From: a virus
IMG/VR virus record: IMGVR_UViG_3300020404_002650
Span: 1-64,000 of that record
DNA: 64,000 nt
Strand: one strand, 5' to 3'
Under the pieces are notes generated by a model, which saw only the letters and a list, made by a program, of their open reading frames with translations, was not told the DNA's origin and did not search any database. Positions within the stretch are counted from its first letter, which is position 1; every line of letters starts with the position of its first letter. Position numbers and translations under genes: made by a program. Below are positions 1,533 to 57,591 of this stretch, piece after piece.

Positions 1533-3485
1533 TTATACTAGAGAACCAGTTGAATTTGCAACAGCAATTTTGGTTTCTTTTGTATTTTTTTCCGTCATTG
1601 ATCCTATTGTTATTAGCGTATTTAAGTGGTTTGCTATCCTTTCGTTGGAATCTGCCAGTTGTGTGAACACCTGATTCTGGTTATTTGGCGCCGACACGGT
1701 GCTAGACGCCGACGGACTCGTTGTTGCTGTGGTATCTGTAGTCGGCATTGAATTAATTGCCATGGCCAACTGTTTGGCCAATTCGCCAACATTTCTCTCG
1801 GGCAGTACCATCTCTGATCCGTGCAGTGTTGCCCGTGTTCCAGACCCAAAGTCTTGGAACCCCGGAGTGCCGTTAAATGCTTGTGGCCCAAAACCGTCGT
1901 TCTCGTTCATGTCGATGATGCCATCTTCTTTTCTGCCTTTTCCTAATACTGTATTTGTAATACTTTTTAGTTGGTCTGCCAGTGCTTTTGATATGTCGGT
2001 TTCACCGTCGACGAAGGCACTTATGGCCTTGCCACCTATACTTCCCTCGTCAATGACCAATCCCTTGATCAAGTTTATGTTAACACTCTGTAGTTCTGCC
2101 TGTACCAGTTCTAGTTGATCACCCACAGCAACCAATTTCTTGGTGTTGCCTTCTTGTGCTTCTAGACTTTTCTGTTGGAATGATGCCATGTCTGCCTGTT
2201 GACCCGCCATCTCGCTGAACACGTTCAATGTTTGTGCCGCTAAATCGTTTCCAGCCAAGGCCGCACTTGCTATTGCATCACCACCCTGTATGCCTGTGGT
2301 ACCTATCGATTTGAATACACCGTCTAGACGTAACAACTCCTCCTCAGTGAACTTGCCTGACCTTCTAGTGAATCCCAATAGTGCTTCTTCGAACTTACCG
2401 CCTGAGAACACAGATAGACCTTTACCTAGATCTCCTATCGGTACACCTAAACCTATGAATTCTTTTGCCGCCTGCTTTGCCGAATCTGGCAATAGTTTAA
2501 GGGCCGCAAGTACTCTCTGTTGTTGGTCCGCGTCCATCTGTGCCATTTTGGCCGCAAACACACCGTCCGCCGCCAGTTGTCTGTTTCTCTTGTCAAGTTC
2601 TCGTACACTTTCACCGGTCAGTCTGCTCAATGTCGTTAAATTTTTAGCATACTCCTTAGTGCCTGCTAGAAGTGTTGCCTGTGTAAGTTGTCCCGCTCGA
2701 CCCCTTGCCCTCTCTATTTCAGCAAAAGTGGTCAAGAACTCTGTGGTCTCTTCCATTGTGATACCAAATCCGGACAGTTCTTCCATTGTGAATCTTTTCA
2801 GTTCTCTGGCAAGTCCTGTGATCTGAGGTATTCCTGCATTCACCGAACCAAACAGTTTTGCTAAAGTTGTTGAGTTGTCCTGTATCAGTTTCTGAAAATT
2901 CACCAACGACAGTCCTGACTCATATGCGAAGTTGCCCATGGTGGTCAGCGAACTTCCAAAAGTGGCACCTGACTGTGCAAGACCCTTGAACATCATTGTT
3001 TGGTCATCCAACTCCTTGCCGAACACACTCATTATTCTGCCTATACCTGGAATTTCGTCCAGTCCGGCATCTAAGGCATCACCGAAAGTTTTGATGTTTG
3101 AGGACGTCTTGGCAAATTCAACACCTGTCTTTGCAACTGCCATAGCAGTCTTTAAGAAAAATTTACCAATCTCTACGAGAATTTTTTTGAAACTGAAAAC
3201 ACCCTTTGATGCTCTCTTGGTCTCGTCGCTGTGTTTTTTGATTACTTTAATGTTGTCGTCTATAACTTCGTTTTGCTCTTCCGTCAACACGTTATTGGCT
3301 TTGAGATGGTCCCTTAACTTTTCATTACGCTTGATTAATTCTTTTACAACTGCCTCTTGCTTCTTGGCTGTGTCTGTATTTTTGATCAAAGCCTTACTAC
3401 TACCCTGAAGGGCCTCCCTTATCTTGGTGATGTCTTTACCAGCACCTTCCAGTATCTTTCTTAGATCGTCATCAATGTCGGCCAT
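1533..3485 (-). CDS. Tail tape-measure-like structural protein
   Basis: 650 aa, the first gene of the minus-strand late unit ending in the portal. The first ~90 residues are charged and predicted coiled coil (DLRKILEGAGKDITKIREAL). A hydrophobic helix follows at about 105-130 (ILVEIGKFFLKTAMAVAKTG), then long Ala/Gly/Leu-rich helices. Near residues 547-566 is GSGTRATLHGSEMVLPERN, the kind of motif found near the C-terminus of many phage tape-measure proteins; a Thr/Ser/Ala linker and a final helix follow. The length is close to T4 gp29 (590 aa), which sets tail length and plugs the hub. The gp26/gp51-like frameshift pair, which looks like a tail-assembly chaperone, is divergently transcribed next door. 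That context supports the call, but no direct gp29 similarity can be shown here. A different internal virion or neck-associated protein remains possible. Confidence 0.6.
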   Translation of the reverse strand: MADIDDDLRKILEGAGKDITKIREALQGSSKALIKNTDTAKKQEAVVKELIKRNEKLRDHLKANNVLTEEQNEVIDDNIKVIKKHSDETKRASKGVFSFKKILVEIGKFFLKTAMAVAKTGVEFAKTSSNIKTFGDALDAGLDEIPGIGRIMSVFGKELDDQTMMFKGLAQSGATFGSSLTTMGNFAYESGLSLVNFQKLIQDNSTTLAKLFGSVNAGIPQITGLARELKRFTMEELSGFGITMEETTEFLTTFAEIERARGRAGQLTQATLLAGTKEYAKNLTTLSRLTGESVRELDKRNRQLAADGVFAAKMAQMDADQQQRVLAALKLLPDSAKQAAKEFIGLGVPIGDLGKGLSVFSGGKFEEALLGFTRRSGKFTEEELLRLDGVFKSIGTTGIQGGDAIASAALAGNDLAAQTLNVFSEMAGQQADMASFQQKSLEAQEGNTKKLVAVGDQLELVQAELQSVNINLIKGLVIDEGSIGGKAISAFVDGETDISKALADQLKSITNTVLGKGRKEDGIIDMNENDGFGPQAFNGTPGFQDFGSGTRATLHGSEMVLPERNVGELAKQLAMAINSMPTTDTTATTSPSASSTVSAPNNQNQVFTQLADSNERIANHLNTLITIGSMTEKNTKETKIAVANSTGSLV

Positions 3486-3515: not shown

Positions 3516-3523
3516 TATAAATA
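3516..3523 (+). promoter_or_regulatory. T4-type late promoter, plus strand
   Basis: Exact TATAAATA, the -10 element read by the T4 late sigma gp55, which needs no -35 box. It is 43 bases before the ATG of the gp26-like gene, with a Shine-Dalgarno-like AGGATAAAG between. The opposing box at 3549-3556 lies between this promoter and its gene. Confidence 0.75.
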
Positions 3524-3548
3524 TTGACACTCACATGCAATTAGTGTA

Positions 3549-3556
3549 TATTTATA
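3549..3556 (-). promoter_or_regulatory. T4-type late promoter, minus strand
   Basis: TATTTATA on the plus strand is TATAAATA on the minus strand. It is 63 bases upstream of the tape-measure-like start at 3485, with an AGGTAGGA-like ribosome binding site in the leader. It probably drives the tape-measure and portal genes. Confidence 0.75.
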
Positions 3557-3566
3557 GGATAAAGAA

Positions 3567-4424
3567 ATGACAGAAAACACAAACCCACTAGGCAAGTACT
3601 ACCGTCAACCGCAGGTGTACATCAAACTACCCAGCAAGGGCAAATACTACTCTCCGGATGTATTCACACCTTCTGAGACAGGTGAGATACCTATACTGCC
3701 CATGACTGCCAAGGACGAATTAGCATTTAAAACACCTGATGCAATGATGAACGGACAGGCGACAGTCGACGTGATTAAATCGTGTGTGCCAAATATTAAG
3801 AATCCGTGGAAAATGGTCAACTACGACACAGACACAGTGCTTTTGGCCATAAGGATTGCCACATATGGCGAAACAATGGACATCACTTATGTAGTGCCTG
3901 AAATAAACCAATCAGCATCGACCACTGTCAACTTACCGGCTATGCTCGAAGGTGTATCAAACATAGATCCACAGGATTACGCCACTACAAAATCAGGATT
4001 TAAAATTAAGATTGATCCACTTACCTATGACAAACTGAGTAAGATACAAGTGGCACAGTTCGAACAACAGAAGATATATTCGAACGTGGCAGAAAGTGGA
4101 TTGACAGAAGCACAGAAGTCAGAAAGGTTTGCAGAAAGTTATAGAAAAATGCAAAACATAAATGTCGAATTACTGATCGACAGTATAGCAGAGATAACCA
4201 CACCTGAAGGACAAACAGTCAAAGATGGTAAACAGATATTTGATTTCATATCAAACTGTGACACGAAGATCACAAAAGAGATAGAAATTGTTTTAGGAGA
4301 ATTAAGATCACAATGTTCAATGAAGCCATTACAAGTTAAGGCAACGGAAGAACAGATTAAGAAGGGTGTACCTGCCTCGTATGAGGTTCCTGTTACATTT
4401 GATACTGCAAATTTTTTCGGATAG
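3567..4424 (+). CDS. 26: Baseplate hub subunit, gp26-like
   Basis: 285 aa. The N-terminus NPLGKYYRQPQVYIKLPSKG (residues 6-25) is the hallmark of the T4 baseplate gp26 family (Pfam T4_baseplate) in marine T4-like phages. gp26 takes part in assembly of the central baseplate hub. The rest is a mixed alpha/beta domain with a helical second half (about 165-250). The gene has its own late promoter and a good ribosome binding site (AGGATAAAG). Its last sense codons read GCA AAT TTT TTC GGA, so a T TTT TTC slippery heptamer lies two codons before the TAG stop. A -1 shift there would extend the protein by 76 residues into the adjacent gp51-like frame, giving about 360 aa. In T4, gene 51 is the neighbour of gene 26. 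Confidence 0.75.
   Translation: MTENTNPLGKYYRQPQVYIKLPSKGKYYSPDVFTPSETGEIPILPMTAKDELAFKTPDAMMNGQATVDVIKSCVPNIKNPWKMVNYDTDTVLLAIRIATYGETMDITYVVPEINQSASTTVNLPAMLEGVSNIDPQDYATTKSGFKIKIDPLTYDKLSKIQVAQFEQQKIYSNVAESGLTEAQKSERFAESYRKMQNINVELLIDSIAEITTPEGQTVKDGKQIFDFISNCDTKITKEIEIVLGELRSQCSMKPLQVKATEEQIKKGVPASYEVPVTFDTANFFG
4412..4418 (+). other. Putative -1 ribosomal frameshift site (T TTT TTC)
   Basis: In the gp26 frame the heptamer is T TTT TTC, a canonical X XXY YYZ slip site, directly preceded by an overlapping A AAT TTT (4409-4415). The gp26 stop codon is at 4422-4424. The downstream frame has a stop at 4400-4402 and no ATG, GTG or TTG until an internal ATG at 4508, so a slip is the simplest way to translate it. 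P2 E/E' uses the very similar T TTT TTG. No strong downstream stem was identified by eye. Confidence 0.6.
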
Positions 4425-4648
4425 CGTTACTTTCAAAGTCGGATTCTGACATTATAAAATACCTTAAAGATTTCGAAAATGCCTCAAAAAATCTCAAACT
4501 TGAAATAATGAAGATATGCTGGTTCATGAGGGGCGGAATGAATTGGCAAGAAGCCTTGAATCTTTCGCCTGAGGAACGTCAGATCGTGTCGCAACTGGTA
4601 AAAGAAAACATGGATACTACCAAGAAAACAGGTCAACCTTTCTTTTAG
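4418..4648 (+). CDS. gp51-like baseplate hub assembly ORF, expressed by -1 frameshift from gp26
   Basis: This frame has no usual start codon. After slipping at TTT TTC it reads on through RIALLSKSDSDIIKYLKDFE to a TAG at 4646-4648. The conserved-looking core is MKICWFMRGGMNWQEAL, then LSPEERQIVSQLVKEN and DTTKKTGQPFF. I recall a short protein of this type next to gp26 in T4-like marine phages, annotated as gp51, the hub-assembly catalyst; the name is tentative. The continuous coding quality between 4418 and 4508 argues against independent initiation at the internal ATG (4508), which would give only 46 aa. A short protein plus a frameshifted longer form is the usual architecture of tail-assembly chaperones, which act with the tape-measure protein. 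Such a protein is encoded divergently next door. Confidence 0.55.
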   Translation, partial: RIALLSKSDSDIIKYLKDFENASKNLKLEIMKICWFMRGGMNWQEALNLSPEERQIVSQLVKENMDTTKKTGQPFF

Positions 4649-12830: not shown

Positions 12831-13811
12831 CTACCATTTCTTTTTTACTATTGGTTTGTGATTGGTCATATCTACTTTTTTGTAGTTGACCTCTTGGAAA
12901 TCGTCAGACTGTAATTTTCCTGTTTTTTTCAACTTTCTATTTAACTTGGCTATGCCTGTCTTGTTAACAATTTTAGCCTCACCGTGTGCAGTCTTCATTC
13001 TTTTTTGATAGGACGGTCCTGCAGTTTCATTTTCGTTTTGCCTTGTGAAACTTGGCATCATGCCGTTGAACTCTAAAAGGTCATCCCTTATCGCCTGATT
13101 CTTCTTCTCAATATTCAATATCCTTGTGAAACTATTTGTTATTGCGGCAGTGTAGTATGCAAATGGATTATCCGATTTTGACTCGTCGAATTGCAAACCT
13201 ATCTGACTCAACTGCATCAACGCTTGTGACTGCATCTCGTCATTGTATGTGTATCCTCTCCAGTTTGCTCTCGTGCCATATCTCTCACACAACTTCATGT
13301 ACATCAGTGCAAGTTGATTTGTCATTTTGCCATGGTCGGCAGAAAAATAACCGTTGTCCATTCCTCCAACCCAATGGCTTTTGCCCACGCATTTTGGCTT
13401 TGCTTTTTTGTCTAACCTGAAATGCTGAAACGGTGGAAAGTTTACTTTTGAATGATGGTCTGCTGTTTGCTTTGGATTCTTCTTACGTGTGTCGTCCATG
13501 GGTATGTGGTCGAACATCATCACACGGAAAACTAGATCAGTCTTGTCTATCTTCCTTGGCGATATTGTGTAATCTGCAAGTTTGATCTTTTTCATGCCAG
13601 CGGCTTTGGCGGCCTCCCATGCTTCTTGTGTCAATCGTTTGGCTTTGTTTTTTTTGGCCTCCGCGATTGTTCTCACATTTATTTTTTTAAGGTTTGGCAC
13701 AATTATATCGTACTGCGAGTCCTCCTGGCTCACGTAGGAGCAGTAGGTGTTTTTGCTGGCGTGTATCTGTGCCAACAGATCTCTGTTATTCAGGTATTTT
13801 ACTCTTTTCAT
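12831..13811 (-). CDS. 55: Late-transcription sigma factor gp55 with a large internal insertion
   Basis: 326 aa from the ATG at 13811, chosen because TTGGAG precedes it by about 7 bases; a GTG at 13844 would add 11 residues. The C-terminal half holds the gp55 sigma-2-like core: MYMKLCERYGTRANWRGYTY, then NDEMQSQALMQLSQIGLQFD and SKSDNPFAYYTAAITNSFTR. It binds RNA polymerase and reads TATAAATA. The first ~20 residues (YLNNRDLLAQIHASK) look like the usual gp55 N-terminus (NNKDL). Between these parts are about 140 residues of unrecognised basic sequence, including LTQEAWEAAKAAGMKKIKLA, KIDKTDLVFRVMMFDHIP and WVGGMDNGYF. T4 gp55 is only 185 aa, so the insertion is notable. A basic Lys/Arg-rich tail follows the core. 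Confidence 0.9.
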   Translation of the reverse strand: MKRVKYLNNRDLLAQIHASKNTYCSYVSQEDSQYDIIVPNLKKINVRTIAEAKKNKAKRLTQEAWEAAKAAGMKKIKLADYTISPRKIDKTDLVFRVMMFDHIPMDDTRKKNPKQTADHHSKVNFPPFQHFRLDKKAKPKCVGKSHWVGGMDNGYFSADHGKMTNQLALMYMKLCERYGTRANWRGYTYNDEMQSQALMQLSQIGLQFDESKSDNPFAYYTAAITNSFTRILNIEKKNQAIRDDLLEFNGMMPSFTRQNENETAGPSYQKRMKTAHGEAKIVNKTGIAKLNRKLKKTGKLQSDDFQEVNYKKVDMTNHKPIVKKKW

Positions 13812-13901
13812 ATTTCTCCAATAATGTGTTGTAAAAGTGACCACAAACAGGTCTGTTGTAATCGTGCCGTATGGGTTATTAAGTGCGCCTAGAATTGTGC
13901 C

Positions 13902-23200: not shown

Positions 23201-23703
23201 CTGTCAAATACAAAATTTTATTTGGATCCAACGCCCCTGAGCCACTACAGGCAACTTTTAAGGTTGTTAAAAATCCTAAAACAAATGTTACTGACGCTGT
23301 AATCAAAACAAGAGTGATTGCCGCAATTAACGAGTTTTTTGCACTGGATAATTGGGACTTTGGAGATACTTTTTATTTTACAGAACTTGCCGCATACATT
23401 CACAAAGAACTTGCACCAGACTTGTTGACTGCTGTGATTGTGCCTAACGAATCAGAACAGAGTTTTGGGTCTCTGTTTCAAATTAATTCAGCGGCAGACG
23501 AAATTTTCATCAGTGGGGCCACCGTTGATGATGTATCGATTATATCAGCACTAGGAGCCAATCAACTTGCGGCTTCTGGCACTGTGGTTACATCAACATC
23601 AACCACGTCAACGAACACAACTACGGGTTCAGCAGTATCAGGCTCTACTACATCAGGATCGGGATCAAGTTCAAGTTCCGGCAGTAGTGGGGCAGGTTAC
23701 TAA
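20215..23703 (+). CDS. 6: Baseplate wedge protein gp6-like
   Basis: 1162 aa. The N-terminal gp6/gpJ family block is clear: [45 protein letters not shown] and [20 protein letters not shown]. The middle carries the [18 protein letters not shown] strand pattern and [20 protein letters not shown], both typical. gp6 dimers form the continuous inner ring of the baseplate that switches during sheath contraction. It is much longer than T4 gp6 (660 aa), with beta-rich insertions in the second half. The last ~45 residues are Ser/Thr/Gly-rich and end in GAGY, resembling the tail of the 36360-37085 protein. Stop and next ATG overlap (TAATGG). Confidence 0.9.
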
Positions 23704-26700
23704 TGGCTGACACACCAATCAATTCACAAGCAAATCAGGAAGTTGTAAAACAAGGTGACAACGAGTACAGAAGATCAGTACAACACCTTCCGGCATTCTA
23801 CAGGACAGATACCAACCAACGTTTCTTGTCTAGCACTTTAGATTCTCTAATACAAAAAGGATCTCTAGAGAGATTAGACGGATTTATCGGACGGCAGGAC
23901 GCCTACACAAGGGAGGTCACAGATAGGTATCTTGGTGCAACCAGTAGAGATAGATTTGCATATCAACTGGAACCTGCAGTAACCTATATTGATAACGATA
24001 CAACATCTATCAATCCAGAAGACCAAGTTAAGTTCACTGGCACATATGATGACTATATCAATCAACTTAAATATTTTGGAGCCAATGTTGACAACCATGA
24101 TAGATTAAACAAAGAAACTGCATACTCGTGGAACCCAGCAGTTGATTATGACAAACTTGTTAATTACAGGGAATACTATTGGGTGTCGGATGGACCAAGT
24201 GCTATAGAAATAGATTCAGTTGGGACAGGAGCAGAAGTTGAATTCAAAGTAGAAGCACTGGCGGACGACGGAACCACAGGCAGAGCATACAGTTTCCCAC
24301 ATAAGGAAAATTTACGTAATCCAGAAATTACGCTTTATAGAGGAAACACATACAAATTTACAAAAAGTGAAACAGGACATCCTTTCTACATAATGTCCGA
24401 GCCAATATCAGGCGGGATAGCCGCGGACGGATCAACATCGGTACATTACAACGAAGGTGTCACAAACAACGGTGTGCAAAAAGGTACACTAACATTTGTT
24501 GTTCCAACAGATGCCCCTAATACGTTATACTATCAATGTAGCAGTCATGAAAACATGTACGGGGTGCTGAATATCAAGACTGTTGCTTCTAATTCACAGA
24601 TTGAGGTAGAAGATGACATCGTAGGTGTAAAAAATTACAGCCTTAGAACACTTGCCCTATCAAACGGTATGAAGATAAAATTTAAAACCGATCTGGTTGC
24701 AAGTGCATATAAAAACAAAGAATATTATGTAGAAGGTGTAGGTGATGCTATATCATTGACAGATGTCACATCTTTAGTAACACCAGAATCGTATTCCGAT
24801 GACGGAACGCCGAAAGATAAAGATTACATTACAATCAAAAGGGACAGCAGAGATCAAAACCCTTGGTCACGTTACAATAGGTGGTTCCATAGAGATAATA
24901 TTGACAAAGCGGCTACCGTTAATGGCACTCCAAAAGTGCTTGATGAGAATGATCGAGCAAAAAGACCCATTATAGAATTTGATTCTGGATTGGCTTTATA
25001 CAATCATGGAACAGTTGCAAAGGATCCTGTCGATCTATTTGACACAACTATTACTGATGCTTTGAGTGTAGTTCCTAGAGCAACAGGTTATTTTATAGAC
25101 GGTGTTGAACTTACACAAGGAATGAGGGTAGTTTTTTCCGCGGACACAGATATCGCAGTAAAAAATAGGATTTACACTGTAAATTTTGTTACAGCAGGAG
25201 ATTCAACGCAAGTGATTGCATTGGTAGAGACCAACATTGTCGGCGATAATGAAAACATTTATGTCAAACAAGGCACACTAGGTAAAGGCAAGAATTATTA
25301 TTACGACGATACAAACAAAGTATGGAAGACTGCTCAATCTAAAACAAAATTAAATCAGCAACCTCTTTTTGGTATGTGGGACAATGACCATGTATCTTTT
25401 GATGACGCAACGACTTATCCCAATTCGACTTTCGCGGGGGCAAAAGTTTTATCATTTGCAACTTCTGACAGTGCCACGGAGGATACCGTGCTGGGCATCA
25501 AAGTCAAATATAGAACAATTAACAATGTTGGAGATATTGTTTTTGAGTCAGATCACACGTCGGGTACTTTTACATACAAGACAGGTAAAAAAACAATTAC
25601 AAAAAATTTAGCAGAAGGTCATTTACATTACACTACAAGTAGGACAACACACAATTCTCGTAGTGCATGGATCAAAAGATCTGCATCTAGTAAACAAAGG
25701 GTGATAAGGACTTTTATAGTAGACGCAACTGAAAAACAACTTTTTCCTATAGATTTTTTCAAAAATTCTGCCAGCCTAACAGATCTAGATATTTCCGTAC
25801 AGGTTAACGGCGCAAGGAAGACTGTAACAACTGACTACACACTAGTAGATGGCAGTACCAACAAGTACGTAAAGTTTAACGCAGAACTTAAGGTTGATGA
25901 TCAAATAAGGATCGCGGGCCATAGCAGTGCTGACAAAGTCGCCAACAAAGGAATATACGAAGTACCTGAAAATCTTTCAGTAAACGGTTTGAACACAGCA
26001 ACTAATGAATTTACTTTTGGACAAATTGTTAATCATGTAAAAGATATACTAGACAAAAACAGTGCGGTTACAGGATCAATACCAGGGCAGTCAAATTTGC
26101 GAGACAAACCAGATGCAAGGTTGTTAGGCGGATCTATTCAGCAACACGAAGCATCTATTGTACCGGCAATATTTGGTCTAACAGATCAAGAAACCAATGT
26201 ACTAACAGCAATAGATTATGTAAACCTACAATACGAACAATGGTACAATAGTTTCCTTACAAATGCAGTTGGCACTGCTTATGAAGGAGTTGCCAGAGAC
26301 AGGGTTGACGAAATTATTGAAACAATATCGGTAGGCAAAAACAGTAAGTTTCCTTTCTTTTATGAGGACATGATTGGATATGGGCAGAACGTGTCTACAA
26401 GAAGTTACACTGTCCAGGGAACATCGCAAAAGGATTACGCGATTGATTCTTTGCACGATATCACAAAATTAAGCAATAGAGCAGTCTACGTATATCTTAA
26501 TGATGTGCAGTTGGTGTTGGGTTCAGAATATACATTCAGCACAACAGATGATAGCATTAATATTTCAAAAGCACTGACCGTGGGTGACAAAATAGTAATT
26601 AAGGATTACGCTGACACAACAGGAAGTTATGTTCCTCCAACTCCGACAAAATTAGGAATCTATCCTAAGTTTAAGCCTGAGTCATACACTGATGACAGTT

Positions 26701-29700
26701 ATACCACATCTACAAATGTCATAAGAAGACACGACGGTTCTATTATCAAGGCCTATGGCGACGAACGCGATGATCTTATTTTAGAATTGGAAAAAAGAAT
26801 ATACAACAACTGTAAGACAGCATACGACAGTACAAACCTTGCATGGGGAGATGTGATGCCAAGTGTGTTTACATCAACAGAGTATACACGTAAACAAGTT
26901 GACGACACAATGGCCGCTGATTTTTATGTATGGGCAGGCAGGAACAAAGTTCAATACATAAACAATACAGCGTTTTCGGAAGGATCTCCTTTCACATACA
27001 ACTATTCGCTATCAACGGACAGGGTGACAGGACAAAACCTACCTGGTTACTGGCGTGCCATTTACAAATTTTTCTATGACACAGATACACCACATTTGAC
27101 ACCGTGGGAGATGTTGGGTCATTCAGAGAAGCCAAGCACTTGGGAGGCAACGTATGGTGCGGCACCGTACACTGCTGGGAACGATGTCTTATGGAATGAC
27201 ATTGCATCTCATCAGGGTAGATACGGCAAGCCTGACGTAAGGACATATCTTCCTGTAGACGCATCTGGTAACCTATTAGATCCACTGGCTATCGGTATTG
27301 TTAATTTCTTTGACATTCCTGGCAGGGGACTACCATGGAAGTTTGGTGATCATGCACCAGCGGAGACTGCCTGGAGGCGTTCTAGTGCATATCCGTTCAG
27401 TGTTTTAAAAACTTTGGCTATTACAAAACCTGCAAAATTCTTTGAGAACCTATTTGACGTATCTCGATTATCTATAAACTCGGCAGGTAACAAAATATCA
27501 TCCGATACTGGAATAAGATTTAATCTTAATAAAGCCAAATATCATTTAGAAACAGAAACAGACGTAACGACAGGAGTCACTACGAGATTTATGACAGCAG
27601 GATATCAAGTTTTTGTAGTAAATTATTTGACAGGCAAAGGGTTGGATCCTAAGGCATTCTATTACGACAAGATGAAGAATCTTGATATTCAATTGGTTTA
27701 CAAACTGGGAGGTTTTACAGACAAGGATAATATTAAAGTTTTGACTGATTCTGTTTCGCCGGGTTCAACAGCAGGATCAAAATTTATACCGGACGAAAAC
27801 TATAAAATAAACTTTAGGACATCAAACCCAGTTGAAAGTTTTCAGTATTCTGGTGTGTTGATAGAAAAAAATACTGATACATCACTTGACGGGTCGTCAC
27901 TACTTGGTGGGTTTAAAGTTTTAGGATATTCAACAACAAAACCATTTTTCAACTTCAATTATCCAGTAAAAACATCGACCAAATCTTCTTTGAAAGTTGA
28001 AGGTTCGGTTGGGGTAGATCAATTCACAAATTATCAAGAAACAGTACAGACTATTCCATATGGATATGTTTTCACTACTGTACAAGACGTTGCAGATTTC
28101 TTGTTGGGATACGGAAATTATCTAGAATCAGAAGGCTTTAAATTTAATAAATTTTCAAAAGAGATAAAAGAAACATTAAACTGGACAAATGCTGTTAGAG
28201 AGTTTTTATTCTGGACCACACAGGAATGGGCACCTGGATCGGCAATAACAGTTTCACCTGCCGCGGACGGATTTGAATTAGACACCAACAACAGCATTGT
28301 TGGCAAGTTGAGGAACCTGGCAGGAGATTATAGCATTGTTGATGCAGGCGGAAGAAAAATTGACATCAGAGAGATAAGCACAAAACGTTTAGGAAAAACT
28401 TTTGATCTTACAATGAAGTCGGCAGATATTGGTTTATATAACATCGAATTAAACACTGTTCAGAAAGAACATATTCTAATATTTGATAACAACACAGTGT
28501 TCTCCGATGTGATATATGATCCATTTACAGGGTTCAGGCAACAAAGATTAAAAGTGGTTGGTTGGAAGACAGGTAACTGGGATGGCGATTATTATGCACC
28601 TGGGTTTGTATTTGATGCGGCGCAAGTTACATACTGGATCGCAAATACAGATTACAGAATAGGCGACGCAGTTGAATATCAAGGTAAGTTTTATGTTGCG
28701 TCCGTCAATCATAATGCAGGCGATAAGTTTATTAGCGATAATTGGGTGCTTAAAAATGACAAACCGGCGCCGCAACTTATTCCTAACTTCGAATACAAGA
28801 TTGCACAGTTTAATGACTTCTATAATCTTGAGACAAATAATTTTGATGAATCTCAACAGCAACTTGCACAGAGATTAATAGGTTATCAGAGCAGGGACTA
28901 CCTAGAAAACTTATTTGTAAATGATGTTTCGCAATACAAATTCTATCAAGGCTACATTAGAGAGAAAGGCACACAGAGTGCAATAGACAAAATTCTTAAA
29001 GCCAAGTATGAAAACTCAGATATTACTTTAAATTTTTATCCAGACTGGATGATAAGAACAGGACAATTTGGTAACCTTGACAGTATAGAAAATATACAAG
29101 TTACCTTAGACGACAAAACTATCAACACAGACCCTTTAAGTTTAGAATTTTTTGACACAGAAAGTTTTTCAAAAGATTATGTGAGATCGGTAGGAGTGTT
29201 CAAGGATAATTTTTACTACAAACCGTTAGAATATACAGCGTCAGACACTTTCAAGCGTTATGACTTCACACAACCAGGCAAAGACAGGGACAATGTGCAG
29301 ATTTACAAGACAGCAGGTTATCCTCAGGTCCAACAAGTGCAACATACAGCATTTTACATTCAGGATCTGTTGTCACTTGATGTTGAGTCAGTATCAAGAA
29401 ATGATCTTATTTGGGTAGCCAGCAAAGAAAATGCAGACTGGGACGTTCTTAGAATGACGTTTTCAGGATTTAAGATTGACTCGTTACAACCAAACATCAA
29501 TAACACACAAATGTTAATTAAATTTACAGATTCACATGGATTGACCGCGGGCAGTGCCACAACAACGGCGGACTATTTTGCAATAACAAATAGTGAAAGC
29601 ACAACATTAAACAGAGTCTACCGTGTTGCTAGTGTTCCTACCCACGATAGTGTGTTGGTGGAATACGACGACGATACAACTTTTATTCCTACATTAGCAG

Positions 29701-32700
29701 ATGGTTCGACGGCAGACAGTTACGGCAACATTTACAAATTTATTTCAGTAAGAATCAATTCGATGGACAATGTAAATGACAGGCTGGCATATTCAGAATA
29801 TAAGGATAAAAACGACACACTTGAAATTCCCGGCGATAAGGTATTTGCAGATGCTGACACATCTGGTTTGTGGCGTGTTTACGAAAAACAAGATCCATAT
29901 ACTGAAAAAATTATCAATTCGCCAAACACTACCACAAGTAACCAAGAGTTTGGATATCGTGTTGTGGCTAGGAACGATGGTAGGACAGTTGTTGTATCGG
30001 CACCTGGCAAAGGGCAAGGAGAAGTACACTTCCTATTCAGGACGTCACACAACGCAGGGACATCTTTTTCGACGCAGGCAACTGCAACAATGACAGAGAA
30101 CGATGACAATACAAGCAGATTGGGAGAGTCATTATCAATAAGCACAGATGAAAACTTTGTTGTTGCTGGTGCACCATATACAAACACACTGGACAATGAC
30201 GGCAGTACACGGCAGATAGATGCAGGACTGATCAAGGTGTACGTATGGAATCCTGACAGATATCAATATGGAATACTAAACACGTTGACACCTCCAACTG
30301 ATGGTTCGACCGAAAATGAAAATTTAAATTTTGGTTGGTCGCACAAGATTGCCGAACCGACTGATGCATCAACAAGAAGCACAGCAAGGAAATACTTGTT
30401 TGTTTCTGCCCCTGGACATTCAAATGACACAGGTGTGGTTTATATGTACACATGGGGAATAGGTGCTGATGGATCGACTTATGATACTTGGACGCAGGAC
30501 GCATCGATAATGTCGCCAGCGGGCGGGTCGGCTCAGAGATTTGGACACAGGCTTGAAACAAATGATAATGGTGATATATTGGCAGTGAGTTCAATAGCAC
30601 CTGGCAACGCTGGAAAAGTAGAAATATTTGTTAGGCAAGGTGCTTCAGACGGTGACAGCACACAAAACACATTTACGCATGTGCAAACATTGACAGGAGT
30701 AACATCAGATGGTTCAACGCTGAACACTGCATTTGGTGAGTCAATTGCTATGAGCAAAGACGGAACAACACTTATAATTGGTGCAACAGGAGTTGACGAC
30801 GTACAAGTGGACGCAGGAGCAGTTTACACATACAAATGGAACGCGGATGGTTCTACTAACACATATACGCTACAACAAACAATTAATGCTCCTGATAAAC
30901 TAGACAACGTAAGATTTGGATCAAGTGTGTCGTTGACACAAGACGGAACAAGGTTAGCAATTGGCGCCGAAAAATCTGCAAACCCTAGAGAAATGAAATT
31001 CGATTCAGGAGAAACAACTTTTGATTTACAAGACACAAGGATTGTGGACACAAACGAAGGTTCGGGTGCTGTTTATACTGCTACAATATACAATTCACAG
31101 TATGTGTTAGACGATAGGTTAGTATCAACAAAAGTGTCCTCGTTTGACGATTTTGGAAGAGGCGTCAGCATGTCTGCCAACAATCTCTTTATTGGTTCTC
31201 CGAACGATGAAGGCAATCCTGATCTAACTAATGACGGAACAGTACATCAGTACGATTGTAACACAGACGGAGAGTATGCTTGGAAAAATTTAACAACAGA
31301 AACAAACTTTATCGACATTGAAAAATTAGGACAGGTATTTGACTTCAATAACGGTACAAAACAAATAGGAAATTACTACGATCTTTATGATCCAATAAAA
31401 GGCAGAATACTTGGACAGGCAGATAGAGAAATAAATTACAGATCACCTTGGGATCCTGCCACTTACAACACAGGAGATCAAAGCAATATTAAAACACCTT
31501 GGCTTGAAGATCATATAGGGGAAGTATGGTGGGATCTAACAAAAATAAAATATATCTGGTACGAGCAAGACGATCAGCAATACAAAGTCAACAACTGGGG
31601 TAAATTATTTCCTGGCTCAAGCGTTGATGTGTATGAATGGACAGAATCTAGCCTTTTACCTGAGGATTGGAATGGCCTAGTTGGTTCGGAAACCGGCAAC
31701 AATAATAGTATATCAGGAATAGCAAACCTACAATACAGTGTGGCACAAAGGTATGACTCCAGGTTGGACGCTTTGGTTGATGTTTATTATTATTGGGTAA
31801 AAAACAAAAACACGCTACCGAGAAACAGCGTGGTTCATAGGAAAAATACTACAGGTTATGTTGCCAATCTAATTTCTAATCCTAGATCTGGTGCAGTGCA
31901 ATGGTATGCGGCAACAGATACTAATAAAATAATGATTAATAAATTATCTCCATTAATTAATTCTGATGTCGTTTTGAATATTGACATAAGGAAGAATGAC
32001 TTCGAGGGAGATGCACACAGCGTATGGAAACTTGCAAGAGAGGGCGATAAGGATTGGAGGCCTAATGCCGAAATCGAAACCAAGTGGTGGGATTCATTGT
32101 GCGGACAAAACAGTGCAGGTGATGTTGTGCCTGATGTCAATTTACCTATATACAACAGGTATGGAAACAGCATTAGACCAAGACAAAGTTGGTACGTTGA
32201 CAGGCTTGAAGCACTCAAAGAAATTATTGACTACGCTAACAGCGTAATAAAGAAAACTCAATTGGCAGGACAAGTCAGCCTCGATAATTTGAACAGTGAA
32301 GACCCTGAGCCTACAGTAGAGAGTGGAGAGTGGGACGCATCTGTCGACACATACGCAGACCTAACTTACATCAATACTGCTGATATATCGGGCTCGGTAA
32401 ACTATCTGGTCAAAGCAGACGAGACTGCCAATGACTTATGGGCGATATACCAATGGGATGGCACACAGTTTAATAGAACAAAAATTCAAACTTACAATAC
32501 TTCGAAATATTGGAGTTACACAGACTGGTACGGCACTGATCCTGCTATCCATGAGATGATCCATAGTGAAAATACTCCTATCGATAAACAGGTAACTTTT
32601 GAATACGAACTAGACGCACTTGACCTTGCTGTAGGTAAGCATGTCAAAGTGACAAACGCCGACACAGGCGGATGGAAACTGTTCATGAAAACAAGTACAG

Positions 32701-35700
32701 GTTGGACAAACGTTGGAACAGAAAATGGAACTTTCAAATTAAGCACAAAATTATATGATTACAGCCAGGACGCAACAGGATTCGCAGGCGAGGATAATTT
32801 TGATGACAACACTTTTGACCAAGAGCCCAACCAAGAAACTAGACAAGTATTGAAAGCATTGAAAGAAGATTTCTTCAAAGGCGATCTGTCTATCGAATAC
32901 AACAATCTGTTCTTTGTGGGTTTAAGAAAAGTTCTTGAGGAACAGACTTATGTGGATTGGATGTTCAAGACTAGTTTCATAACTGCTGTTAACAGTGTCC
33001 GATCATTGGATACCAGAAAAACATATACAAAAGGCACTGACACTTGGATAGAAAGTTACATAAATGAAGTAAAACCTTTCCATACAAAATTAAGGAATTA
33101 CAAATTGGGTTACTATGCACCAGAACAACACGATGGTGTTATCACTGATTTTGACAATCCACCATTCTATGACGAGACGACTGGCAAGATACGTAAGTTT
33201 AACCCAACATACGACACAGCAAAACGCACAACGTATCCATGGCAATTGTGGTACGATTATTACACTAAACACGTGAAATCAATCACAGTGTTTGCAGGTG
33301 GCTCTGGTTACGAGACAGCACCAACAGTCACAATCAGCGGCGGAGGTGCAACCACACAGGCCACTGCCACTGCTACTATCACTGGAGGAGTGGTCACTTC
33401 TATCACATTGACAGGTATAGGTTTTGGTTATACATCCACACCAACTGTGACGCTTACTGGCGGTATGAACGATGGCACGGCACCAAGTGATGCCGCAAAA
33501 GCCTACGCAAACCTGGACAATGACCTTGTCAGGGATTTTGATACAACTATAAAATTTGACAGGATAACAAGCACATCGACTGTGGTTGACTGGGCGGCGA
33601 ACACAACTTACAAGTATGGCGCTAAAATTAGATACCAGAATGAATTATACAAAGCAGTGAACGAGTTTACATCTACTACAGACTTTGATGACAACGAAGG
33701 TGCAGTGACAAAATATTACGGCGACGAGACAGGATTAACAGCGGCTGATAGGATAAAAGGATTCTACACACCAACAGATGGCATGCCAGGCAATGAGTTG
33801 TCACAGGTCATGTCAGGAGTTGACTATGGTGGCACGATGGTAACGGGACTACTTTTCAAACAGAGTCAAGGCTGGGATGAATCTGCATGGTACGACTATC
33901 CATGGGACAACTATGGAGTATCTAGGGTAAGAGCATTTTACGCCGACGGTACTACAAAAGCATTTACTTTCGCAGGCGAAACGTCAGTGGTATATCATGT
34001 TTATAAGACAGAAAGTGATGAACGTACAAAACTTTCAGATACATTTATTGGAACAGGCAGTGAGGCAACTTACACCTTGACTGGCGCAACACCAAACGAG
34101 AATGCTTTGATAGAATTCATACCTGCAGACGACGATGGTGTGTTGACGCCTACTGATGATAGAACTTTAGACAGCATTATCAAAGGTGGTTTGTTCACCA
34201 AGAACGGATTGTATGGCAGTGCATTGGGTACAGCACCAAGTGACATTAACGTTGACGGAGATGCTTTTGTTTCATCCACAACAAGTTACGCACCTGAAGA
34301 AGTTGTGCCGGGACAAATATTTGACACAGTGGACATAAAGGTTTATACTGCACCTGAAAGTGGTGTGCCTTTGATCACTGACAGAAATTATCATGGCGAT
34401 GGTAGCACAACAACATTTGCATTGGGTGATCATCCTGGAACGTTGGCGTCGGTCAAAGTCTCAGTAGATGGAGTGACTAAAAAAGCACAGATAGATGGGT
34501 CAACAGTAGAGGATTACACAATTGATGTAGGTGCAAAAACAATTACATTTACAACTGCACCAGGAAGCGGTGCTTTAGTATCAACAAAAGTTTTTGCAAT
34601 ATCTGGTGTAAATTACAGAGTGCTGGACACATTCACAGGTGACGGTTCTACAACTGTGTACACAACATCGGCAAGACAAGACTTCAATATAGATTCCACT
34701 AACTCTGAGATCTATGTGACAGTAGATGGTGTGCCTACTACGGACCTCACAATAACATATACAGATCCTGAACACGCAGATGGATCTACAACAATAATTG
34801 GCAATACTGCTATTGTTACTTTTACAACAGCACCGACGTCGGGACAGTTTATACAGATTGCAGGATTCCAAAGTTCAAGTACCACAAGGAGTGTGGCACA
34901 GATCAGATCAGAAGACTTCACTTATGATGAGTCAACTACCAATTATGCATTGACGTTCCCGCCAGGGTCTATTACACCAATGCACGGTTTGTGCATAATC
35001 GAACTTGATGGCAAAGTTTTGAGAGGACCTGACACAACTTATTACAAAGGCGACGGAAGCACATACACCTACGGTGTTGCATCTTCATTGAGCGATGGTT
35101 CAACAGTTGACCCTGCGAAAATTATTACGAACACAAACCAAATAGAAGTTCACTACAACGGTAGAAAATTATCTGAAGGTGCCTTACCAAACGGCAACTA
35201 CACTGTTGACCTGGCCGCACAAACTGTAAGTACAAACGCACCTGCAAATCCAGGCGACATTGTTGCAATAACAACTTTAGTTGACAAACACTACCAGATA
35301 GACAATCAGCCTAGTTCACCTGTGTTGGTATTAGACACGGCACAAATGCATACAGACGGCTTCAACAAGTCAGGCACTATGAGAGTTACAACTTTTAATA
35401 ATGCACTTGGCATGAAATATCGTAGGGAAGTATTAGAAGGCAGACCAAATGGAGAATTCTTCTTGCATGACGAGCCGTTGAATTCAACTTACATGTATGT
35501 TTGGTTGAACGGAATTCAACTTACGCAGAATGTTGACTTTGCGTTCAACTTTGCGTTGGATGGACCAAAAATTACAGTCCATGGCAAGACTATTACAACA
35601 AGTGACAGACTAGATGTGATGTTCTTTGCATTGCAATCGGCAACAGATTCAATTGGATACAGAATATTCAAGGATATGTTGAACAGAACTTTTTATAGAA

Positions 35701-36350
35701 GAATATCTAAAACACACACTACAATATTGACCGAGACACTGCAAACCACAGACACAACAATTACTGTGGCAGATGGCACAAAACTTGCAGAACCTGGATT
35801 CACTATATCAACTGACGGAAGCACGATCAGTGACAGGACGCCAGGTGTGGTGTTTATAGGCAAAGAAAGAATAGAATATTTTACCAAATCAGGTAACACG
35901 TTGGGACAATTACAGCGTGGTACTCTTGGAACAGGAATTAAGGAGCATGGATCAGGTGCAGAAGTGGTAGACGCATCTGGAACTCAAACCATACCTTATG
36001 TGGACACAGTACATACCAATACCTTTACGGGTGATGGTAGCACGGCAGTGTTCACTTTATCACAAACACCGGCTTCTGCTAGTGAGTTAGACATATTCAT
36101 TGGTGGCCAACGAGTGTTGCTCACTAGCGAGGACGGTTCAACAATCAACTATTCTGTGGACGGAAGCACAACTGCTGTGACATTCACAACAGCACCTGCT
36201 GACGCTGAACAGATCAAAATACTACACAAGAGAGGACAGGTATGGACAACAGCGGCTGATGGTAATCCTGGCGACGGCAAGGGATTACAAGGATCAACTA
36301 CTGCACAGGCTAAATTCATAGCGGATGAGCCTACAAATGCACCTGAATAA
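23703..36350 (+). CDS. Giant multidomain baseplate wedge/virion protein (gp7-type)
   Basis: 4215 aa, a fifth of the window. Residues 1-175 ([40 protein letters not shown]) match the start of the large wedge-type structural protein of marine T4-like phages. About 200-293 is a cupredoxin-like domain with His226, Cys279, His282 and Met285. About 1642-1685 and 3293-3333 resemble short chitin-binding-like modules (W.....Y..GD.V.Y.G..Y.A). About 2080-2520 is an FG-GAP type beta-propeller ([60 protein letters not shown]). About 3193-3256 holds paired GSGY..PTVT..GG repeats. From 3560 to 4183 come GDGST-type beta repeats ending in FTTAP...I.I. T4 gp7 has 1032 aa. It is followed after 9 bases by the next structural gene. 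Confidence 0.8.
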
Positions 36351-53433: not shown

Positions 53434-54311
53434 GCGATTTGGATTTTGTTTATATCTCTTTCAAAGAGCCAAACAAAGAACAGAACTGGATCGACCTTAA
53501 GAACAAAGTGCCATGGGCAAAACGTGTGGATGGTGTTGTTGGGTTCGACAACGCCCACAAGGCCGCGGCGGACAAAGCGGAAACTGATTTTTTCATTAGT
53601 GTGGACGGTGACAACATAATCGACGAAAGTTTTTTATTGCAAACACTTGACTGGTCAAAAACCAACAAAGATGCAGTACACAGATGGCGGGCAAGGAACA
53701 ACATCAATGGCCTTGTGTATGGCAATGGCGGTTTGGTGGGGTGGAACAAAAAGACGTGCATGGAAATGAAGACCCATGAGAACGCTGACGCAGATGAAAA
53801 CCAAATAGATTTCTGTTGGGGTGTGCCACACGAAAACCTGCACAACTGCTACTCCGAGACAGTGATAAACGCCACGCCACAGCAGGCTTTTGTGGCCGGA
53901 TACAGGGAAGGCGTAAAGATGAGCACGGACAAAGGCAAGCCTATCACTGCCAAAAACTACTCTCGAACAATATGGAGGAACAATCTCAACATACTCAGTA
54001 CCTGGTGCACGATCGGTGCAGATGTGGAGAATGGCAAGTATGCAATGTTGGGAGCGAGGATGGGGTGCTTCTATACGGTGCTGGAACCAAACAACGAATT
54101 TTTTAAGATAAGGGACCTCGATGAAATGCAGAACTATTTCAACGAGATAGACAAGGATAACATTGACGAACAACTACATGCATTTGGCAATAGCCTGCGA
54201 CAGCAATTGGACATACCAATTGCAGATTACAGCGAAGAGGACAGCAGGTTCTATAGATTCATCATGCCAAGGCATATCAACAAGGGAGTGCAAGATCGTG
54301 AGTACCAGTGA
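53412..54311 (+). CDS. GT2-like glycosyltransferase family protein
   Basis: 299 aa from the ATG at 53412 (GAAGGA upstream); a start at 53376 would lie deep in the previous gene. LDFVYISFKEPNKEQNWIDL and AKRVDGVVGFDNAHKAAADK resemble the GT2 N-terminus. ETDFFISVDGDNIIDESFLL holds the DGD metal motif. NGLVYGNGGLVGWNKKTCME fits the acceptor loop. The C-terminal third is helical. Together with the three other sugar-transferase-like genes it may build or decorate a glycan. The next gene starts inside its last 14 bases. Confidence 0.65.
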   Translation: MADRVRISDLDFVYISFKEPNKEQNWIDLKNKVPWAKRVDGVVGFDNAHKAAADKAETDFFISVDGDNIIDESFLLQTLDWSKTNKDAVHRWRARNNINGLVYGNGGLVGWNKKTCMEMKTHENADADENQIDFCWGVPHENLHNCYSETVINATPQQAFVAGYREGVKMSTDKGKPITAKNYSRTIWRNNLNILSTWCTIGADVENGKYAMLGARMGCFYTVLEPNNEFFKIRDLDEMQNYFNEIDKDNIDEQLHAFGNSLRQQLDIPIADYSEEDSRFYRFIMPRHINKGVQDREYQ

Positions 54312-55668
54312 TTACAAAGCAGACGCACTGAAGGCCAAGGATAAATTAAAGCAAATTTCTCCCACGATGTGTCTGGCAAAATGGAACCAGACGTCACTGC
54401 ATCTGCCAACAGGCATGACCAACTCCTGTTATCATCCACCACTGCACAACATTGACGCAAGGCAACTGGAGAGGAATCCGGCCGCACTGCACAACACAGT
54501 GGAAAAACTGGAACAAAGATTTCAAATGCTACAAGGCGAACGTCCCAAAGGATGTTCATACTGCTGGAAACTGGAGGACACCGGTGAGATGTCGGACAGG
54601 CACTACAGGTCCGGGGAGCCATGGGCCATGCAGGACTTCGAGCAGATCAAACAGAATCCAATGACAACAAGTTGGACACCGAGGTATGTGGAGGTAAACT
54701 TTAACAACGCTTGTAACTTCAAGTGTAGTTACTGTTCTCCGCAATTCTCAACAACGTGGGGCAAGGAGGTGGAACGTTATGGCCAATATCCGACCACCCC
54801 TCCCCACAATGCACCAGAGCACTTTCAGGGCAGGAGACGTCCGATACCGAACAGGGAGGAAAACCCCTATGTGACAGCGTTCTGGAAATGGTGGCCCACA
54901 TTGTACAAGAATCTTAAACACTTCCGCATGACCGGAGGCGAACCCATGATGGACAAAAACACCTACAAGGTGTTCCAATACATAATAGATCATCCAAAAG
55001 CGGACCTACACCTTAACGTCACAAGCAACATGTGTCCACCGGACAAGAAGTTAAAAGAGAAGTATTTCAACATGGCACAGACGATTTGTATGCAGGAGAA
55101 AGTGGAACACATGATGCAGTTTGTTAGCGTTGATGCATTTGGTAAACGTGCAGAATACATACGTGACGGCCTGGATTTCAATTACATGATGGACAACGTC
55201 GAGGAATTCCTAGATAGAATACCTGTGCGTAATTCGATAACATTTATCTGCACATACAACAATCTCAGCATCACAAGTATGGATAAACTGCTGGAGAAGA
55301 TACTTGAACTGCGAACAAAGTACAGCAAGACCTATCAGCGTGTATGGTTCGATGTGCCACTGTTGCGGCAACCTGCTTGGCAACAGATCACACTTTTGCC
55401 CGAGTCCTATCAGAGCATACATGAGGCCAACATAGAATACATGAAAAATAATTCTGGCGAGGACAACGGGTTGCACATATTCAAGGATTTTGAAATTCAG
55501 AAGATGCAGAGGAATCTCGCATATTGGCGCGAAAACGCTGACGCAAGTACGCAAAATAAAAAAAACTTTTACGCTTTTTTTACTGAACACGATCGCAGAC
55601 GTACTACAAGATTTTTAAACACATTTCCAGAAATGGAAGATTTTTGGGCGGAGTGCAGTAATATATGA
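54298..55668 (+). CDS. Radical SAM protein with Cys-rich N-terminal region, type A
   Basis: 456 aa from a GTG at 54298, chosen because AAGGGAG lies ~10 bases upstream and a longer frame would sit in the previous gene. CNFKCSYC (Cys139, 143, 146) is the CxxxCxxC that binds the radical-generating 4Fe-4S cluster; FRMTGGEPMMD is the GGEP SAM motif. The N-terminus has Cys25, Cys44 and GCSYCW (Cys86, Cys89), a twitch/SPASM-like auxiliary cluster region placed before the core. Such proteins use a 5'-deoxyadenosyl radical to modify peptides, sugars or nucleic acids; the substrate is unknown. Most like 56248-57591. Confidence 0.8.
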   Translation: MSTSDYKADALKAKDKLKQISPTMCLAKWNQTSLHLPTGMTNSCYHPPLHNIDARQLERNPAALHNTVEKLEQRFQMLQGERPKGCSYCWKLEDTGEMSDRHYRSGEPWAMQDFEQIKQNPMTTSWTPRYVEVNFNNACNFKCSYCSPQFSTTWGKEVERYGQYPTTPPHNAPEHFQGRRRPIPNREENPYVTAFWKWWPTLYKNLKHFRMTGGEPMMDKNTYKVFQYIIDHPKADLHLNVTSNMCPPDKKLKEKYFNMAQTICMQEKVEHMMQFVSVDAFGKRAEYIRDGLDFNYMMDNVEEFLDRIPVRNSITFICTYNNLSITSMDKLLEKILELRTKYSKTYQRVWFDVPLLRQPAWQQITLLPESYQSIHEANIEYMKNNSGEDNGLHIFKDFEIQKMQRNLAYWRENADASTQNKKNFYAFFTEHDRRRTTRFLNTFPEMEDFWAECSNI

Positions 55669-56267
55669 AAAGTATAGGATTTTTTGGAGACAGTTTTTGT
55701 GCAAGTAATCAACCCGAGAGTTGGTGCAATATACTTCAGGAAAAACTAGGCGCCAATCGAATAAGGTGGTTCGGTGAGCCTGGGAGAAGCATATGGAGTG
55801 CAATGTTTAGATTCAATAGATTAATACAACAAGATAGGGTACCGGATATATCTATATTTTGCTGGACAGAGCCTTACAGATTGTACCATCCCAATTTAAT
55901 TTTGAGTGCAAATACACAACCATTGGAGGGAGTAGATCCAAAAGTATATGAGACCTTAGACAACTATTGGAAATATCTACACAACTACGATAAAGACGAA
56001 ATGGCATACGAATATGCCCTAAAGTATTACGATCAAAATGTGCTGTCAAAAGTTAAAAGTGAGATAGTACAGATGTGGAGTTTCCGCCCTTTTGAAACCG
56101 CTGACAAAGATGCAGGAATAAAATTATCCACAGGCACATTCATAGACGAAAGCATATTCGAATTTAGTGGGGGTAACGACAACTGGGGCAAAGGCACTAT
56201 CAACCATATGACAGTGGAACAGAATCAACAATGGGCAGAAAAGATTTATGGACGACTTACAATTTAA
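55665..56267 (+). CDS. SGNH/GDSL-like hydrolase
   Basis: 200 aa. MKSIGFFGDSFCASNQPESW has the block-I GDS with nucleophilic Ser (residue 10). WFGEPGRSIWSAMFRFN fits block II (Gly), and GKGTINHMTVEQNQQWAEKI gives the late His (block V, HMT in place of DxxH, with preceding N). The block-III GxND Asn is not obvious. SGNH enzymes remove or transfer acyl groups on sugars or peptides. It lies between two type A radical SAM genes, coupled by ATGA upstream and a 20-base overlap downstream. Confidence 0.6.
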   Translation: MKSIGFFGDSFCASNQPESWCNILQEKLGANRIRWFGEPGRSIWSAMFRFNRLIQQDRVPDISIFCWTEPYRLYHPNLILSANTQPLEGVDPKVYETLDNYWKYLHNYDKDEMAYEYALKYYDQNVLSKVKSEIVQMWSFRPFETADKDAGIKLSTGTFIDESIFEFSGGNDNWGKGTINHMTVEQNQQWAEKIYGRLTI

Positions 56268-57591
56268 AAAGCAAAAGTTAGATACTAAATCCGCAAGTTT
56301 TTGTGCGGCCAAGTGGTACAACGCAACTATCTGGTTGGGCAGTGGTATGACCACAAGTTGCCACCATCCTTTACCTCACAAAATTGATCTTGAGGAGATC
56401 AAGACAAATCCGAGCGCCATACACAACACACGGCAAAAGAAAGAGCAACGTAGGCAAATGCAGTGTGGTGATAGGCCTGCAGGATGTGAATATTGCTGGA
56501 AGATAGAGGACATCGGCAGAGACGCAATCAGTGACAGGGTATATAAATCAAAAATTTACACTGATAAGGAATTGGACGACGCATACAAATCAGATCATAA
56601 CAGAAATTTTAATTTAAGGACCTTGGAAATTGCTTTTGATAGAGTGTGTCAGTTTGCCTGCACATATTGTAATCCTGCTTTTAGTACAACATGGGCAAAC
56701 AACATTAAAAATCAAGGACCATATATGAGCCTAATGTCTGATGGACGTAACCACTTCACTCATGCACATGATTCAGCGGAACCATACAAAAAAGATGAGA
56801 CCAATCCTTATGTCGAGGCATTTTATAAATGGTGGGAGAGCGATCTGCATAAAACACTAGACGAATTGCGTATCACGGGAGGAGAACCAATGATGTCTCC
56901 TAACCTATGGAGACTGCTTGATTGGATAGAAACGCAAGGTGACAAAATGAGACCTGGTATGCGTATTGCAATAAATTCAAATCTTGGCGCCAAACAAAGT
57001 ATTATTGATAGATTCAAAAACAAACTGAAAGGATTTAAAAACTTTCATTTGTATACAAGTTGTGAAGCAACATTTAAACAAGCAGAGTATATCAGAGATG
57101 GACTCAATTATGGAGAATGGCACTCTAATCTGTTACATATGATGGTTGATAAAGTTCCATCTGAAATTCATAATATGTGTACCATAAATGCCTTGTGTTT
57201 AGAATCATTGCCTGAATTTTTAGAGAAAATGGTTTGGTTTAAAACAGCAAGTGCAATATATGGACCAACCATCAATTACACACTTAACATTTTGAGATTT
57301 CCTAGTTTTCAATCGCCGCTAGTACTACCGGATGACTTAAGGAATAAATTTAAAATGGACCTGGTAAAGTTTTTAAGTAAGAATGAAAAATATTTAGAAC
57401 AAATGGAAGTGAATCATACACAAAGATTAATAGATTATTTAGATGTAGTGAAGACACCACACGCAGGTGCGGCCGAACAAAGCAAACTGCAAAAGGATTT
57501 CAAGGCATTTTACAGCCAATATGACAAACGACAAGGAAAGGACTTTGAAAAGACTTTCCCAATTATAGGAGAATGGTACCGTGGCATATGA
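56248..57591 (+). CDS. Radical SAM protein with Cys-rich N-terminal region, type A
   Basis: 447 aa. CQFACTYC (Cys134, 138, 141) binds the 4Fe-4S cluster; LRITGGEPMMSP is the SAM motif. The N-terminus has FCAAKW (Cys19), TTSCHHPLPH (Cys38) and GCEYCWKIED (Cys80, Cys83). The same order and wording appear in 54298-55668 (MCLAKW, NSCYHPPLH, GCSYCWKLED, FSTTW after the core Cys), so the two are paralogues. The C-terminal DKRQGKDFEKTFPIIGEWY parallels HDRRRTTRFLNTFPEMEDFW of the other. Likely heterologous partners or successive enzymes of one pathway. Confidence 0.8.
   Translation: MDDLQFKKQKLDTKSASFCAAKWYNATIWLGSGMTTSCHHPLPHKIDLEEIKTNPSAIHNTRQKKEQRRQMQCGDRPAGCEYCWKIEDIGRDAISDRVYKSKIYTDKELDDAYKSDHNRNFNLRTLEIAFDRVCQFACTYCNPAFSTTWANNIKNQGPYMSLMSDGRNHFTHAHDSAEPYKKDETNPYVEAFYKWWESDLHKTLDELRITGGEPMMSPNLWRLLDWIETQGDKMRPGMRIAINSNLGAKQSIIDRFKNKLKGFKNFHLYTSCEATFKQAEYIRDGLNYGEWHSNLLHMMVDKVPSEIHNMCTINALCLESLPEFLEKMVWFKTASAIYGPTINYTLNILRFPSFQSPLVLPDDLRNKFKMDLVKFLSKNEKYLEQMEVNHTQRLIDYLDVVKTPHAGAAEQSKLQKDFKAFYSQYDKRQGKDFEKTFPIIGEWYRGI

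Follow-up and report, generated by a model that had tools for sequence, protein, structure and literature searches.

Short and long forms of a gp26-type tail assembly chaperone from a predicted programmed −1 frameshift in jumbo, uncultured marine and other T4-like phages

We analyzed a 64,000-nucleotide stretch of DNA from an uncultured marine T4-like phage (hereafter the window; positions 1 to 64,000 of IMG/VR record IMGVR_UViG_3300020404_002650), in which a gp26-like gene occupies positions 3567–4424 of the plus strand and encodes a 285-aa product, referred to here as the short form (TAC-N). This product matched PF12322 (T4_baseplate) over the gathering score in a Pfam profile search (E = 3e-12) and the baseplate hub family phrog_150 in PHROGs (E = 6e-15); the record holds one copy of a PF12322 gene. 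The AlphaFold model of the short form (pLDDT 84) gave T4-like baseplate hub assembly proteins as its top fold matches, and PDB sequence and fold searches with the short form returned no significant match. Outside the T4-like group, Foldseek gave weak matches to the tail assembly chaperone of Arthrobacter phage Molivia (E = 0.05 and 0.08).

The neighboring open reading frame (1533–3485, minus strand) is divergent from the gp26-like gene, 81 bases apart, and encodes a 650-aa tape-measure-like virion protein, which is the probable client of the chaperone. In 67 loci this ORF is conserved with minus-strand orientation, and in a profile comparison its product matched (98.5%) the virion structural proteins encoded beside gp26 in jumbo phages; the PA5oct homolog has been detected by mass spectrometry, and the annotation of the RaK2 homolog notes similarity to a tail tape measure protein. 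An earlier reading of this DNA, made from its letters alone (the sequence-only reading), had placed a tape-measure-like gene next door. The two genes do adjoin, but on opposite strands; the jumbo-phage homologs are distant only, and since the product showed no detectable similarity to T4 gp29, the "tape measure" label derives from position. The intergenic region carries a divergent pair of late promoter boxes of T4 type, TATAAATA, at 3516–3556 (plus strand, 3516–3523; minus strand, 3549–3556); of 79 loci, 60 keep the forward box and 70 the reverse one. The window also has a gene for a late sigma factor (12834–13844). Elsewhere in the window, positions 23703–36347 form one 4215-aa open reading frame directly 3′ of a baseplate wedge gene, and several radical SAM domain proteins are clustered at 54163–60194 of this phage genome.

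The gp26-like gene ends with the codons GCA AAT TTT TTC GGA TAG, the zero-frame stop lying at 4422–4424. Within this end, AAATTTTTTC (4409–4418) consists of two overlapping canonical −1 slip heptamers on the plus strand, A AAT TTT (4409–4415) and T TTT TTC (4412–4418), both in register and inside the frame overlap. The coordinates and letters agree with the sequence-only reading, which had put the site two codons before the stop; a single codon (GGA) separates the second heptamer from it. The −1 frame is open from 4403 to 4645 and closes with TAG at 4646–4648, and the +1 frame is soon closed. Slippage at either heptamer would give the identical fusion, in which DTANFF is joined to RIALLSK and 284 residues are followed by 76, for a total of 360 aa. 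In-frame heptamers of the XXXYYYZ type occurred at 54 of the 10,015 codons of the window's genes, and when the region was shuffled 20,000 times, a 76-codon open −1 frame arose 53 times. In 59 sequences, the RNA 3′ of the slip site showed no consensus structure (mean fold z near 0), and the 25 nt preceding the site contained no 4-mer resembling a Shine-Dalgarno sequence. Thus, no stimulator of either kind was detected for the predicted −1 frameshift. A stimulator is not obligatory for frameshifting in phage tail genes.

Conservation of the site among close relatives was evaluated by scanning IMG/VR with the 285-aa protein as the query, which yielded 80 related loci at 49–81% protein identity. 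The 12 bases CAAATTTTTTCG were identical in 80/80 relatives, at a constant distance from the stop; with the window included, the 10-mer, and with it both heptamers, was identical in 81/81 sequences, and the −1 frame was uninterrupted in all 81. The −1 stop fell exactly at +224 in all 77 relatives not cut by a contig end (78/78 with the window). Comparison of these 80 relatives, a check of the kind that the sequence-only reading had proposed, revealed no loss of either the heptamers or the frame offset. These data also bear on the suspicion that the gene is decayed or that the arrangement reflects an error of sequencing or assembly. The homopolymer run, and nothing else, speaks for it; the same site and frame offset recur across 80 independent contigs as well as finished genomes of isolates, and the extension is under strong purifying selection. 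An artefact or decayed gene, of vanishingly small probability, is refuted by these comparisons.

We then compared codons in 60 non-redundant sequences (below 90% nucleotide identity, median pairwise identity 60%). Amino acids were invariant in 40 columns of the short form, among which only AAT, TTT and TTC were also invariant as codons; over the amino-acid-invariant columns, two-fold codons had a mean identical-codon rate of 0.57. Furthermore, the base preceding AAT TTT TTC, which is the third base of a four-fold degenerate codon, was always A (TCA or GCA) and completes the first heptamer. With overall usage at 45% for AAT and 44% for TTT, the invariance of the slip codons is not explained by codon bias. 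These results indicate that the slip site is kept beyond protein-coding needs.

The −1-frame extension at the C terminus (TAC-C; 4418–4648, plus strand; 76 codons and a stop) aligned without gaps in 59 sequences, in which codon periodicity was compatible with the −1 frame only (positional entropy of 0.71, 0.39 and 1.37 at −1 codon positions 1, 2 and 3) and the median pairwise dN/dS was 0.17. The extension is thus coding and under purifying selection, in line with the earlier description of 76 coding, conserved-looking codons. Fourteen of its residues are invariant, including R, W, RGG and a terminal FF, and AlphaFold modeled it as an all-helical domain (pLDDT 75). Pfam and PHROGs searches with the −1 ORF gave nothing significant, and a PDB sequence search with the extension found no match. 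Comparison by hhalign showed the window extension to be homologous to the −1 extensions of jumbo phages (99.5%); the jumbo-phage extensions were in turn weakly linked to those of cyanophage type (66%), and the cyanophage-type −1 ORFs were similar to the tail of T4 gp51 (88%). The direct comparison of the window TAC-C with the T4 gp51 tail was not significant (hhalign 1.1%).

The distribution of start codons allowed us to evaluate whether the downstream ORF might instead encode a separate protein, initiated independently through coupling or reinitiation once ribosomes have terminated at the gp26 stop. The first ATG, GTG or TTG of the window's −1 frame is the ATG at 4508, as expected from the claim that no start codon lies near the beginning of this ORF; this claim fails in some relatives, in which a TTG at +5 (35 sequences, including two truncated by a contig end) or an ATG at +14 (13 relatives, one with a 50-aa frame left at the contig end) is present. 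Such early starts, together with jumbo-phage annotations of a separate hypothetical protein with internal starts, are what an independent protein would predict. However, the starts shift in place, and several relatives, like the window, have none before +86, so a separate start is not conserved. Moreover, initiation at 4508 would drop the conserved first 30 residues with their invariant R and L, and a codon-invariant slip site in the upstream frame would be left unexplained. A separately initiated protein is therefore very unlikely.

The arrangement extends well beyond close relatives. A T TTT TTY heptamer followed by a −1 ORF of 57–80 codons was found in 14 jumbo phages and in six other T4-like isolates (S-PM2, HTVC008M, Cr30, phiM12, phiW-14 and KVP40). 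Isolates at 25–35% identity, e.g., Atu_ph07, Phosso, PA5oct, Vibrio phage 2.275.O, PBECO4, RaK2 and GAP32, kept the site, the gene ending in T TTT TTC or T TTT TTT before the −1 extension. The nearest isolates to the window gene were the gp26 genes of the jumbo phages Atu_ph07, Phosso, PA5oct, RaK2, PBECO4 and GAP32 (25–32% identity), which resemble it in having T TTT TTC or TTT followed by a −1 extension homologous to its own, and most of the jumbo phages also carry the divergent structural-protein neighbor. They differ in that the zero frame may continue for up to ~11 further codons before its stop, and in their annotation the extension is either a separate ORF or missing: after gp26, the conserved −1 extension is absent from the annotation of PA5oct and RaK2, and it is given as a separate hypothetical protein in PBECO4, BF and GAP32. 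Each frameshift-type record tested for copy number contained one PF12322 gene, some of these records being fragments. At the end of the PF12322 gene of Rhodothermus phage RM378, a C-domain-like open frame lies in the +1/−2 frame (TCC TTT TTT TGG) rather than in −1, an offset that suggests a different direction of shift.

T TTT TTY is missing from two contigs of cyanophage type (L126 and L127), whose sole heptamer is an A AAT TTT in the right place. These contigs are informative about a second alternative, in which RNA polymerase slips on the six-T run and produces −1-frame mRNAs. Homopolymer runs longer than A3T6 are known sites of transcriptional slippage, and A3T6 is itself a short tract of this kind. 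Nevertheless, L126 and L127 retain the −1 C-domain with A AAT TTT only and a run of just four T residues (AAATTTTACC), a sequence that is a slip heptamer for ribosomes but a poor place for polymerase to slip, and slip codon spacing is always in the ribosomal register. We consider polymerase slippage highly improbable.

Because the slip site is invariant, the −1 frame is constrained as coding sequence and the arrangement is widely conserved, a −1 frameshift is very probable. Our confidence is high that this gp26-type gene gives rise to short and long forms of a tail assembly chaperone by a predicted programmed −1 frameshift, and this proposal of the sequence-only reading gains strong support from the comparative evidence. 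The sequences themselves show the slip site, its invariance at codon level, the constraint on the −1 frame and the broad conservation; actual slippage by ribosomes, its rate and the chaperone role are inferred. Most ribosomes would stop at 4422–4424 and release the 285-aa short form, equivalent to gp26, and a minority would slip by −1 on AAATTTTTTC, at T TTT TTC and/or A AAT TTT, to produce a 360-aa long form (TAC-NC, equivalent to gp51) whose C-terminal domain would be helical. In the simplest account, the paired tRNAs (Asn/Phe or Phe/Phe) would slip in tandem.

T4 provides the closest comparison, since it also has a short and a long PF12322 protein, gp26 (208 aa) and gp51 (249 aa; PF12322 at residues 1–201), both listed as hub assembly chaperones (PMC3004832). 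The sequence-only reading described genes 26 and 51 as separate and adjacent; they are adjacent, but divergent, and there is no slip site at the 3′ end of T4 gene 26. It also called the second ORF gp51-like. As gp51 comprises a complete PF12322 protein followed by a tail at the C terminus, it corresponds to the entire long form, so that gp26 appears, by sequence, to be the counterpart of the short form and gp51 that of the whole frameshifted product. The long form would thus come from a single PF12322 gene with a slip site in the window, whereas T4 uses a second, separate PF12322 gene. Vladimirov and colleagues reportedly described, in 2022, frameshifting in several T4-like groups and separate genes 26 and 51 in T4.

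The arrangement is therefore already known for T4-like phages, as far as it is credited to that work by later papers, although the sequence-only reading knew of no description of it. The identification of T4-like tail chaperone genes is attributed to Vladimirov, Gautam and Davidson (Virology 2022, 566:9–15) by PMC10885494 and PMC12846349; citing that study, PMC12846349 mentions polyT slippery sequences in T4-like TAC-N genes, and PMC10885494 mentions that some T4-like phages have separate short and long genes in place of frameshifting. We checked the likeness directly in S-PM2, KVP40, HTVC008M, Cr30, phiM12 and phiW-14, which share with the window a PF12322 short form, a polyT slip site at the 3′ end and a −1 C-domain. 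The window's marine clade differs from these in the length of the C-domain (76 versus ~57–63 codons) and in the fixed pair of overlapping heptamers. Possibly new, then, are the double heptamer fixed in a large uncultured marine clade, the heptamer switch in L126/L127, and the site in jumbo phages. Tentatively, and with somewhat less than even confidence, we suggest that AAATTTTTTC is a compound two-heptamer signal with no need of an RNA stimulator, fixed in this clade, that would set the ratio of short to long chaperone, with family members switching heptamer (mostly T TTT TTY, A AAT TTT alone in L126/L127).

Frameshifts in tail assembly chaperones are classical. Lambda gpG/gpGT, P2 E/E′ and the Vandenendeviridae TAC share with the window gene short and long forms made by a −1 frameshift near the 3′ end, and lambda-type loci likewise lie beside a tape-measure-type gene; no significant sequence similarity was shown between the lambda-type chaperones and the window gene. 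The lambda G/GT layout, in which the chaperone gene is flanked on its own strand by the tail tube and tape measure genes, is not found in the window: the tape-measure-like gene is divergent here and downstream in the lambda type. By analogy with lambda gpG/gpGT, both forms would coat the tape measure protein until tail tube assembly, and the coated protein is probably the product of the divergent gene at 1533–3485, which is under the paired late promoters.

Among the T4-like phages sampled, including jumbo and uncultured marine phages, tail chaperones made by frameshifting would accordingly appear, from their sequences, to be the common arrangement, and the separate genes 26 and 51 of T4 the exception. 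Because the long form is currently split or missed in annotation, tail-chaperone genes are wrongly described in many genomes.
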